This document shows positions 2,467-34,800 of a DNA stretch of 64,000 bases, piece after piece. The stretch is from assembly GCA_947627245.1 (NCBI GenBank), contig CANQVH010000007.1, forward strand, positions 1 through 64,000. The letters run 5' to 3'. Source of the stretch: an uncultured Lachnospiraceae bacterium. GTDB lineage: Bacteria; Bacillota; Clostridia; Lachnospirales; Lachnospiraceae. The notes beneath the pieces were generated by a model, which was not told where the DNA came from, searched no databases, and saw nothing but the letters and a program-made list of their open reading frames with translations. Position 1 is the first letter of the stretch, and each line of letters opens with the position of its first letter. A program made the position numbers and the translations under genes.

Positions 2467-2512
2467 ATCGTGGAGCATTGCCCCTGTGCGTGATGCAGGG
2501 GAGGGGATTGCT

Positions 2513-3229
2513 ATGCGGATCGCAGTATGTGACGACGATCCGAGAGAACAGGAACAGATTGAAGAGGCGCTGCAGGGTTGGGATCCGACGCGGAGCGCAG
2601 AAAAATTTCTGGACGGCAGATCTCTGCTTGAGGCTGCGAAGAGGACACCCCACTTTGACGTTGTGTTTCTGGATATTTATATGCCCGGAGAGGACGGAGT
2701 CGAAGTGGCGAAAGCGCTGCAGGAGGAATCCCCCGGCACGGGGATCGCGTTTGTCACCACCAGTACGGAGCATGCGATAGAGGCGTTTTCCCTGCACGCG
2801 CTGCATTATCTGGTAAAGCCGGTGACGACGGAGGGCATTGTAGAGGTGTTCCGCAGGCTGACCGAGCTGCGCTCCAACCGCAGGGAAAGCATCGTATTTA
2901 CAGTGGGATCGGAGAGGTACACGGTCTTCTTGGATCAAATCTGCCTCCTCGAAAACGACAATCACGCGGTGAATGTTTCGCTGGCCGACGGAAGGCGGCT
3001 GAAGGTCTGGATGTCCTTCAACGTGCTTGAGCAGAAGCTGGACGGAAGCTTTCTTCGGATTAATCGGGGACTGATCGTCAACATGGATCATATCGTGCAG
3101 ATGGGACCGGATATCTGTACCCTGCGCGACGGAAGCCGGCTGCCGATCGCCGTGCGCCACAGCACCGCGATCCGGGCGGCCTATGACAACTATGTATTTG
3201 ACCGGCTCAGCCGGCGGAAAGGATTTTAA
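2513..3229 (+). CDS. LytTR-family response regulator
   Basis: A 238-residue response regulator. The receiver domain (about residues 1-120) shows the acidic pocket at the start (AVCDDD), the phospho-acceptor aspartate in VVFLDIYMPGEDG and the conserved lysine in YLVKPV. The C-terminal half is a LytTR DNA-binding domain (for example SFLRINRGLIVNMDHI and the final RHSTAIRAAYDN region). An ATG at 2486 is in frame, but the purine-rich GGGGAGGGG just ahead of the ATG at 2513 and the canonical MRIAVCDDD start favour the latter. It is followed by its GHKL kinase, the arrangement of AgrA-AgrC-like peptide-sensing systems. The target promoters are unknown; the peptide-export island downstream is an attractive candidate. 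Confidence 0.88.
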   Translation: MRIAVCDDDPREQEQIEEALQGWDPTRSAEKFLDGRSLLEAAKRTPHFDVVFLDIYMPGEDGVEVAKALQEESPGTGIAFVTTSTEHAIEAFSLHALHYLVKPVTTEGIVEVFRRLTELRSNRRESIVFTVGSERYTVFLDQICLLENDNHAVNVSLADGRRLKVWMSFNVLEQKLDGSFLRINRGLIVNMDHIVQMGPDICTLRDGSRLPIAVRHSTAIRAAYDNYVFDRLSRRKGF

Positions 3230-3240
3230 GGGGGGGGGGG
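3230..3240 (+). promoter_or_regulatory. 11-G homopolymer acting as ribosome-binding site of the GHKL kinase gene
   Basis: Eleven consecutive G residues, the first being the last base of the regulator's stop codon, end 10 bases before the ATG at 3251. No other Shine-Dalgarno sequence is present, so the G-run itself must pair with the 16S tail. Two further genes in this window (22330 and the minus-strand gene starting at 34740) have the same arrangement. Confidence 0.6.
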
Positions 3241-3250
3241 TGGAACGATC

Positions 3251-4615
3251 ATGGTGATTTTTCTGCAGCAGGTGTTAGGCTTTTGCATACAGCTCTATCC
3301 CTGCGCACTGCTGATCTTCCTGCCCTTTCCGCAAGAAGATTGCCGATTCATGCGCAAAAAGATCCTTGCATGGATGACGGTCGTTTCCGCGGCGCTGGCT
3401 GTGTTGTTTTCGGCGGTGATCTGTCTGCGCGATCTGGAGCGGTATCCGGTGCATATCGTGATCTCCAATTCGTTCATGTTCGCCGCGATGCTGCTTATTG
3501 TGGCGGCGTATATCTGGCTGGTGCGCGAAGCGCTGCTGAAGAAGATTTTGGTATGCTTCATCGTGCTGTTCTATGCGGTGACGGAGTTTGTGCTGGTCAA
3601 CATGCTGTACCAGATTCTCTTTCCGAGACAGGCGGACACTACGTTCTATCCTTACACGACGAGGTTCCTGCTGCTGTACGGCGTCTCGACGGCCGTGCTG
3701 CTGCCGGTGATGGTGCTGTGTGTGATCCGTCCGCTGAAGGAGTATATTCAGGAGATCGAGCCGAGGAATATGCGGCGGGAATTTTTTGTCGCAATTTTTT
3801 CTACAGTGCTCTATTTTGTCCTGACGTTCTACTGCGAGACGGTATACGGGAGGGCGAATATTCTCAACCTGTATCTGCCGTTGATGGTGTTCCTGACGCT
3901 GAATCAGATCCTGATCTACTGGCTGATTTTCCGGGAATCGGTTCGGCGCAGGCGGGATAATGAGCGCCAGAGGGTCATGGAGATTCAGCGGATGCAGTAT
4001 GAGAAGATCGTCGACGATATGGAAAACACCCGGCGTATGCGTCATGATCTGCGCCACCATTACAACACGCTGAACGACATGCTGAACCGGGGACAGACGG
4101 AGGAGATGAAGGGGTATCTGGCCGGGGTGATCGACATCACCGCCAAGCGTGACACAGAGATTTACTGCAAAAATATGACGGTCAACGGTCTGTTGCAGTA
4201 TTACGTCGGTCTCGCAAGAGACGAGGGGATCCGCTGCGAGGTTCATGCCGAGTGCGACGAGCTGAATGTCGAGCCCGCGGATCTGACCGTGCTGTTCGGC
4301 AACGCGATGGAGAACGCGATCAATGCATGCAGGAAATGCCAAGGGAATCGCTGGATCAATATCAAGGTCGGTACGGTGCAGGGATCGCTGGCGATCGAGA
4401 TTTCCAATTCCTGCAAGACTGTGCGGCTCAACCGCCATTTCCAGACGGAGGACGGATTCTCGCCCGCGGAGGCGTTCCAGAGCGACCACGGCGGCGGATA
4501 CGGCCTGCACAGTATAGCGCGCACCGCGCAGAAATACGGTGGCACCGCCGGTTTCCGTTTCAACGCGGAAAAAGGGAAATTCACGGCCCGCATTCGTCTG
4601 AATATATCCATGTAG
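3251..4615 (+). CDS. GHKL-domain sensor histidine kinase (AgrC-like)
   Basis: A 454-residue kinase. The first 230 residues form about six membrane helices, as in peptide-pheromone receptors. A short helical linker leads to the phospho-acceptor box around residue 265 (RRMRHDLRHHYN), typical of the AgrC/DUF4173-like class. The C-terminal ATPase domain has the N-box FGNAMENAINAC and a G-box GGGYGLHSI. It lies 21 bases after the LytTR regulator and should phosphorylate it. No AgrB/AgrD genes are nearby, so the ligand is not evident; the small leader peptides exported by the downstream ABC system are possible ligands, which is speculation. Translation starts behind an 11-G run that could be length-variable. 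Confidence 0.85.
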   Translation: MVIFLQQVLGFCIQLYPCALLIFLPFPQEDCRFMRKKILAWMTVVSAALAVLFSAVICLRDLERYPVHIVISNSFMFAAMLLIVAAYIWLVREALLKKILVCFIVLFYAVTEFVLVNMLYQILFPRQADTTFYPYTTRFLLLYGVSTAVLLPVMVLCVIRPLKEYIQEIEPRNMRREFFVAIFSTVLYFVLTFYCETVYGRANILNLYLPLMVFLTLNQILIYWLIFRESVRRRRDNERQRVMEIQRMQYEKIVDDMENTRRMRHDLRHHYNTLNDMLNRGQTEEMKGYLAGVIDITAKRDTEIYCKNMTVNGLLQYYVGLARDEGIRCEVHAECDELNVEPADLTVLFGNAMENAINACRKCQGNRWINIKVGTVQGSLAIEISNSCKTVRLNRHFQTEDGFSPAEAFQSDHGGGYGLHSIARTAQKYGGTAGFRFNAEKGKFTARIRLNISM

Positions 4616-22312: not shown

Positions 22313-22320
22313 GGGGGGGG
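22313..22320 (+). promoter_or_regulatory. 8-G homopolymer as ribosome-binding site
   Basis: Eight consecutive G residues end 9 bases before the ATG at 22330, with no other Shine-Dalgarno sequence. It has the same design as the runs before 3251 and the minus-strand start at 34740. Confidence 0.5.
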
Positions 22321-22329
22321 ACATAAAAC

Positions 22330-22722
22330 ATGGATAATAGGGTCGCCTTTCTTATATGGACGCTGGCAGGATGTCTGGAAATCGGAGACGGGATACGCTG
22401 TTTTTTCAGCAAGGAACCAATCGGATACTTCGCGAACAGGAAGCGGCAGATCTTCCACATGTTTGAAGTGACGGATGTCCGGAGCTACAACCGTGCGACG
22501 GGGAAGCTGTGGTGCGTGTTTGGGATTCTCTTTATTCTGCTGGGGATTCCATGGCTGGTCGGGAAGGGTTCTGCGCGTATTCTCATTCCTATATGCGGCG
22601 TCCTTCCCTTGGAGATTCTGTCGTTTGTCATATACGAGCTGGGGATCAGCAGAAAGTACCGAAAAAAGCAGCAGGAAGGTACCGGAAAAAGCAGTGACTG
22701 CGGAACAGCCGAAAATAGATAA
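22330..22722 (+). CDS. small DUF3784-like membrane protein
   Basis: A 130-residue protein with three membrane helices (about residues 5-25, 60-80 and 84-105) and a basic, Lys-rich tail. The pattern FFSKEPIGYFAN followed by VTDVRSYNRATGKLWCVFGI is characteristic of small DUF3784/SdpI-like membrane proteins seen in Clostridia. Function is unknown. It lies between uvrB and uvrA. It starts behind an 8-G run, and the A-rich repeat tract before uvrA begins right after its stop. Confidence 0.62.
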   Translation: MDNRVAFLIWTLAGCLEIGDGIRCFFSKEPIGYFANRKRQIFHMFEVTDVRSYNRATGKLWCVFGILFILLGIPWLVGKGSARILIPICGVLPLEILSFVIYELGISRKYRKKQQEGTGKSSDCGTAENR

Positions 22723-34749: not shown

Positions 34750-34759
34750 CCCCCCCCCC
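34750..34759 (-). promoter_or_regulatory. 10-G homopolymer (minus strand) as ribosome-binding site of the transpeptidase gene
   Basis: Ten consecutive C residues on the plus strand give ten G residues ending 9 bases before the minus-strand ATG. No other ribosome site is visible. Confidence 0.6.
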
Positions 34760-34771
34760 TGATAATAATCT

Positions 34772-34800
34772 ATTATATAAAGGGAAAGATGGGAATGCAA
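34772..34800 (-). promoter_or_regulatory. sigma-A promoter for the transpeptidase gene
   Basis: On the minus strand TTGCAT (34800-34795) and a perfect TATAAT (34777-34772) are separated by exactly 17 bases. The G-run ribosome site lies about 13 bases downstream of the -10 box, so the 5' leader is very short. Confidence 0.75.

Follow-up and report, generated by a model that had tools for sequence, protein, structure and literature searches.

The window, which is the whole stretch of DNA analysed here, comprises 64,000 nt of contig CANQVH010000007.1 (C7) of assembly GCA_947627245.1, a 3.84-Mb draft genome of an uncultured Lachnospiraceae bacterium in 151 contigs (completeness 97%, contamination 7%). 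Close to its beginning lie two adjacent genes in which Pfam recognizes receiver and LytTR domains and a GHKL ATPase domain, respectively, as in a GHKL/LytTR two-component system (Table 1). They are followed, 3' of the kinase, by a STAS-domain gene and by a gene with dCache, HAMP and SpoIIE phosphatase domains. As far as we found, the kinase has its closest named relatives in three uncultured Lachnospiraceae assemblies with isolate names starting with 'Lapin'. The order at the kinase start is remarkably compact: the TAA stop codon of the response regulator (3227-3229), a run of eleven Gs, the 10-nt sequence TGGAACGATC and the ATG (3251), the last being kept in seven close relatives. The original prediction named this G11 as the only Shine-Dalgarno sequence (SD) of the kinase, and the sequence bears this out: the run ends 10 nt before the ATG and no second SD-like sequence is present within 4-14 nt 5' of the start codon.

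Table 1. Features of the window that are discussed in the text.
Feature	Position	Strand	Basis
SD of the response regulator, GGGGAGGGG, G9 but for one A	2498..2506	+	sequence; relatives compared
LytTR response regulator, directly 5' of the kinase tract	2513..3229	+	PF00072, PF04397
G11 tract, probable core of the kinase SD	3230..3240	+	sequence; anti-SD pairing predicted
TGG finishing a predicted extended SD (GGGGGTG)	3241..3243	+	sequence; predicted duplex
GHKL sensor histidine kinase, 454 aa, ATG at 3251	3251..4615	+	PF14501, E 1.4e-16; orthologues
G8 tract at the SD of the 130-aa protein, 9 nt 5' of ATG	22313..22320	+	sequence
130-aa protein, no Pfam match	22330..22722	+	Pfam
Choline-binding-repeat L,D-transpeptidase, 611 aa	32905..34740	-	Pfam
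G10 tract at the SD of the L,D-transpeptidase, 9 nt 5' of ATG	34750..34759	-	
Promoter-like TTGCAT-N17-TATAAT upstream of the G10 tract	34772..34800	-	read from sequence

Together with the TG that follows it, the end of the run reads GGGGGTG and is separated from GGAGGTG by a single A-to-G change. The anti-SD of the host 16S rRNA is taken by us to be the standard CACCUCC; with this sequence, which may not be that of the host, GGGGGTG is predicted to pair fully through one G-U pair. At eleven nucleotides the homopolymer is long enough to slip, and its placement at the SD position before a conserved ATG would allow it to affect expression, as in a contingency locus. The possibility that the run is a promoter spacer was ruled out, as the best -35/-10 combination scores only 7 of 12, compared with 10-12 for clear promoter-spacer tracts elsewhere, and no promoter boxes flank the run. 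The tract is thus real and probably constitutes a functional SD made of Gs.

The comparison with relatives indicates how such an SD might have arisen. In seven close relatives with a kinase identity of 65-72% (L056, L057, G033, G036, G038, G040 and G042), the kinase SD is of the GGAGG type and contains no run of four or more Gs. The leaders of G033 (TTTTAGAGGAGGACTCGATC) and G040 (TTTTAAGGGAGGTGTGCCGGA) align by eye with TTTTAA-G11-TGGAACGATC of the window, so that, judged from this alignment, G11 occupies the ancestral SD site. Among the close relatives, the kinase tract itself is confined to the window genome. At the other start of the operon, five of the seven carry G runs in the response-regulator SD, namely G7 in G033, G8 in G036 and G040, and G9 in G038 and G042, and the spacing between run and ATG is 8 nt in four of them and 6 nt in G040 despite the varying run length. 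The corresponding site reads GAGGGGG in L056 and GGAGG in L057. Twelve more distant kinase homologues (35-56% identity) were compared using their likely start codons. G8 was found 9 nt before the likely ATG in G022, G7 at 6 nt in G007, and G8 only 2 nt before the likely start in G015, while no run of six or more Gs was present in the other 9 of 12 over the upstream sequence covered, which extended to 950 nt at most. Most likely, judging from these comparisons, the GHKL/LytTR operon has repeatedly gained G tracts at one or the other of its two SDs, and this gene pair may be set on easily mutated start signals.

The two other long tracts of the window also stand at SD positions. The G10 tract of the L,D-transpeptidase gene has a promoter-like element upstream and would thus fall in the transcribed leader; four relatives show GGGAGGGGG, GGAGGGGG, GAGGGGG and G6 at this SD. 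The SD of the 130-aa gene is G8 in the window, G4 in G036 (92% identity) and G5 in G040 (85%), with nearly identical flanks, and four relatives at 45-55% identity have a GGAG- or GGAGG-type sequence there. Outside the window, the SD of an HD-GYP gene is G9 in the host and G036 and GGCGGAGG in five others. The permease genes of G038 and G042, 96.4% identical over 2088 aligned columns, differ by two single-base gaps, one of them G8 versus G9 in the SD tract and the other in a T run. The expectation that tract length is variable therefore holds between species at homologous SDs (7/8/8/9/9 at the response regulator, G8/G4/G5 at the 130-aa gene, G8/G9 at the permease), although not at the kinase, where, among the close relatives, the tract is seen in the window genome alone. 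Not every tract fits a history of SD conversion: a host kinase of the His_kinase family (L035) has G12 at the SD position, 13 nt from its ATG, and eight relatives lack any G run of at least five at this site.

The number of long runs proves nothing on its own, as there is no genome-wide excess over a first-order Markov model. The window contains 220 G/C runs of length 4, 15 of length 5, one of length 6, none of length 7, and one each of lengths 8, 10 and 11. The model predicts about 101 runs of length 5-7 for the window (16 seen), 2.06 of at least 8 (3 seen), 0.16 of at least 10 (2 seen) and 0.044 of at least 11 (1 seen), so that a G11 in 64 kb is roughly a 1-in-23 event. Scaled to 3.84 Mb with the composition of the window, the model gives 124 runs of at least 8 (44 seen), 34 of at least 9 (31 seen), 9.5 of at least 10 (9 seen) and 2.7 of at least 11 (2 seen). 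Two things depart from chance: mid-length runs are depleted in the window, and the long runs are not randomly placed. Upstream of 56 window gene starts, called with a simple script that missed the kinase, the longest G run is at most 5 in 54 cases and 8 or 10 in two, with none of 6-7; the three window tracts are outliers relative to ordinary SDs.

These figures bear on the reading that the kinase SD is simply a G-rich SD that has drifted, the run being tolerated and its length inconsequential. Such drift is suggested by the agreement of genome-wide runs of at least 9 with the model, by the occurrence of G-rich SDs such as GGGGAGGGG and GGAGGGGG, in which one substitution joins shorter runs, and by the tolerance of the predicted pairing to tract length described below. 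The scarcity of runs of 5-7 in the window, the leap of the maximum run at gene starts from 5 to 8 and 10, and the repeated gain of tracts by the same operon argue against it, and as a full account we consider it improbable. Since long runs are not in excess genome-wide, plain drift may nevertheless account for part of what is observed.

In the host genome, 44 tracts of at least eight Gs are present (13 of length 8, 22 of 9, seven of 10, one of 11 and one of 12). A tract was assigned to the SD position if an ATG followed at a distance of 4-14 nt and opened an ORF of 100 aa or more. By this rule 6 of the 44 qualify, and five remain once C65:17459 is discounted as internal, the 291 nt upstream of it being open in frame: the kinase G11, the L,D-transpeptidase G10, the G8 of the 130-aa protein, the G12 of the His_kinase-family sensor (13 nt) and the G9 of an HD-GYP/GGDEF protein that has a 7TM sensor region. 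The idea that the tracts of this genome are mostly ribosome-binding sites was accordingly rejected, and the earlier observation that all three tracts in 64 kb occupy ribosome-site positions is correct for the window (3 of 3) but does not extend to the genome. Two of the 44 are flanked by a perfect TTGACA on one side and a -10-like box on the other. By our own reading, ten fall in frames open for at least 60 codons on both sides (C65:17459 included), and seven at a switch between frames open for at least 60 codons. Among 13 genes tested by Pfam whose tracts are of neither the SD nor the promoter type, eight match glycan families (three GT2, GT8, GT4/GT1, Wzy_C, MBOAT and FkbM); the remaining five comprise SDR, MptE-like, FrhB/FdhB and Asn_synthase matches and one gene without a Pfam match. 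The host lineage is rich in poly-G tracts of a type that elsewhere serves to switch genes.

The enrichment of long runs before start codons was assessed in six genomes, the host and the close relatives G033, G036, G038, G040 and G042 (151 tracts, about 18.6 Mb). Under the ATG and 100-aa rule, 22 of the 151 tracts are at the SD position, compared with one if they are treated as C runs (Fisher 2.7e-6, some orthologues being counted more than once), and the distances to the ATG peak at 6-11 nt. The enrichment proposed in the original prediction is thereby found. The contrast weakens when all three start codons are allowed (25 versus 3 for 100 aa, 28 versus 10 for 60 aa). Discounting C65:17459 and G036:C4:107785, the latter being a promoter tract too, leaves 20 of 151 versus one. 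These 20 represent about 14 gene families; four are response-regulator orthologues, the HD-GYP gene, the permease and a sugar transferase each occur in pairs, and the GHKL/LytTR operon as a whole supplies five. A promoter-spacer score of at least 10 of 12 is reached by 11 of the 151 tracts, compared with 0.44 expected from shuffled flanks; at a score of 9 there is little contrast (5 versus 3.0). Chance from base composition alone was set aside, for the number of long runs does not go beyond it genome-wide but their placement at SDs does. Likewise, the earlier argument that the tracts speak against chance stands with respect to their non-random placement and falls with respect to their number, 44 being well below the 124 expected.

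Little weight is put on simple pattern counts, because these include overlapping registers and -10 boxes ending in ATG. The pattern G8-N4..13-ATG occurs 183 times in 47 genomes of the genus, compared with 82 for the reversed pattern, and 13 versus 7 times in the host; G8-N5..11-ATG occurs 343 versus 137 times in 200 genomes of the family and 279 versus 112 times without G192, G000 and G005. The highest of the 200 counts, 54 versus 22, belongs to G192, which comes from another genus of the family (1.6 Mb, 68% complete).

That the run length at the kinase is an artefact of assembly or sequencing appears very improbable. The draft state of the genome, presumably a metagenome assembly, would allow for it, and contig ends in the six genomes come within 100 nt of 13 of the 151 tracts, where 1.49 are expected. 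The kinase tract, however, lies 3.2 kb inside a contig of 79.7 kb, and G runs occur at the homologous positions of other assemblies.

Several other patterns were recorded at the G tracts of these genomes. The accumulation near contig ends may stem from repeats, from mixtures of lengths or from G runs being poorly sequenced. In G036, three contigs end in an identical 68 nt (C20:56334, C27:46468 and C64:18134; L202, L204 and L212), which abut G9, G9 and G8; the three sequences beyond differ, one being a gene start and the other two apparently the middle of genes, and a search of the six genomes (E up to 0.01) placed the 68 nt at these three sites only. They mark either a repeated or mobile element that ends at poly-G tracts or recombination at them, and since 68 + 9 makes 77, a common k-mer size, a branch of the assembly graph is likely involved. 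Similarly, G038 C57:18368 and C79:65 (L224, L225) have 64 nt in common upstream and different sequences downstream of G8 and G9, respectively, and G036 C4:109554 and C5:78 (L145, L194) share 95-105 nt upstream and differ downstream of G9 and G10. The neighbouring glycosyltransferase genes at G000:C39:8039 and 9157 (L044:2040 and 3158) are 94% identical for 390 nt after G9, with no similarity detected before it, so the boundary of homology falls on the tract. Among the length-9 tracts of neither SD nor promoter type in the six genomes, TA or CA comes next in 40 of 55 and C or T precedes in 49 of 55. Poly-G promoter spacers, in the form of TTGACA-N-G8..G10 and a TATAAT-like box, are found before Big_2-domain genes at L048:2004 (G000:C46:23203), L140 (G036:C4:107785) and L139 (G033:C98:526), the domain having a Pfam basis for L048 and L140 only; the spacer has G10 in the host and G8 in G033, whose copy is 91% identical.

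The effect of tract length was modelled with the standard anti-SD. For 5 to 14 Gs, the kinase leader is predicted to pair at -14.8 to -15.2 kcal/mol, always 7 nt from the AUG; the energy is -10.8 kcal/mol at 4 Gs and about -9.5 at 2-3. For comparison, predicted values are -12.8 (G033) and -11.9 kcal/mol (G042) for the relatives' kinase leaders, -10.4 (G033, G7), -11.4 (G036, G8) and -11.7 (G042, G9) for their response-regulator leaders, and -14.5 for the response-regulator leader of the window. Local folding of the leader is predicted at -26.0 for 8 Gs, -27.4 for 9 and -27.2 for 10-13, and the predicted fold pairs part of the G run with sequence inside the gene. As pairing energy and spacing stay flat over 5-14 Gs, slippage would be nearly silent in this duplex model, which ignores kinetics, leader structure and coupling to the upstream stop codon. 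The proposal that length changes alter spacing or mRNA pairing enough to turn the kinase on and off is thus not supported by the prediction. Switching of the kinase by the tract is possible, while the simplest model predicts little effect; a weaker, graded influence on its expression may exist.

We lean, with limited confidence, towards the explanation that G11 is a working kinase SD that grew from a canonical one by slippage, and that changes in its length are silent or only weakly tuning. A canonical AAGGAGGTG would have undergone an A-to-G change fusing short G runs, after which slippage would have extended the tract. The last Gs with the following TG would make the contact with CACCUCC, and since further Gs are gained or lost on the far side of this pairing register, a length difference of one to a few Gs would, by prediction, have no effect or tune translation weakly; only shrinkage below about five Gs would lower translation. 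In the many glycan-type genes and some promoter spacers of the lineage that hold poly-G tracts, slippage should act as a switch. Under pure neutrality a single operon would hardly gain tracts so often, which argues for selection and perhaps for an effect larger than modelled.

A true contingency locus, in which slippage shifts translation of the kinase (in relatives, of the response regulator) stepwise or gradually and creates sub-populations with different regulator levels, seems to us rather unlikely. In its favour, the lineage carries tracts at which slippage should matter, in open frames (10 of 44), at frame changes (7 of 44), in glycan genes (8 of 13) and in promoter spacers, the GHKL/LytTR operon is a hot spot for tracts, and lengths vary between species. 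The nearly constant predicted pairing and spacing, and the GGAGG-type kinase SDs kept in seven close relatives, count against it. A further reading is a movable poly-G rheostat in the GHKL/LytTR operon of this genus: hypermutable G-only SDs would appear time after time at either of the two genes, and their slippage would set the ratio of kinase to regulator individually in each cell, with the poly-G switches of glycan genes and of promoter spacers as a layer beneath; this we consider doubtful.

Slippage switches are best known from pathogens, where they act in coding frames or promoters; Neisseria porA, for example, has a poly-G promoter spacer. In the open literature, as represented by titles and abstract openings (sometimes of the best few matches) and with most subscription papers outside its scope, neither a poly-G SD that works as a switch nor poly-G contingency loci in Lachnospiraceae were seen. 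The closest parallels are drawn here from parts of the respective reports. In Treponema pallidum, poly-G tracts upstream of the tpr genes and TP0126 differ in length between isolates; they lie upstream of the transcription start and act on transcription, whereas the kinase tract is in the ribosome-binding site (PMC10118025). Mycobacterium tuberculosis espR resembles the kinase gene in that it is a regulator gene with a G tract in its 5' UTR, and an inserted G was reported to raise translation of the regulator; however, that tract belongs to the 5' end of the leader, 144 bp upstream, with RNA structure as its proposed mode of action, whereas the kinase tract is the SD itself (PMC11898584). The G-tract switch of a Bifidobacterium breve pilus likewise involves slippage in a commensal of the gut, and tract lengths vary within the population, but the tract is intragenic rather than at an SD (PMC9187656). 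In Neisseria fetA a poly-C homopolymer sits between -35 and -10, an arrangement like that of 11 of the 151 tracts of the host genus and unlike that of the kinase tract, which lacks flanking promoter boxes (PMC5320596). In the uncultured Lachnospiraceae lineage analysed here, G tracts occupy the ribosome-binding sites of regulators, and further tracts are present in glycan genes as well as in promoter spacers. If length tunes translation at these sites, the cells of a gut commensal would differ at random in a regulator; if it does not, G-only SDs would be a simple hypermutable element that buffers its own mutations.
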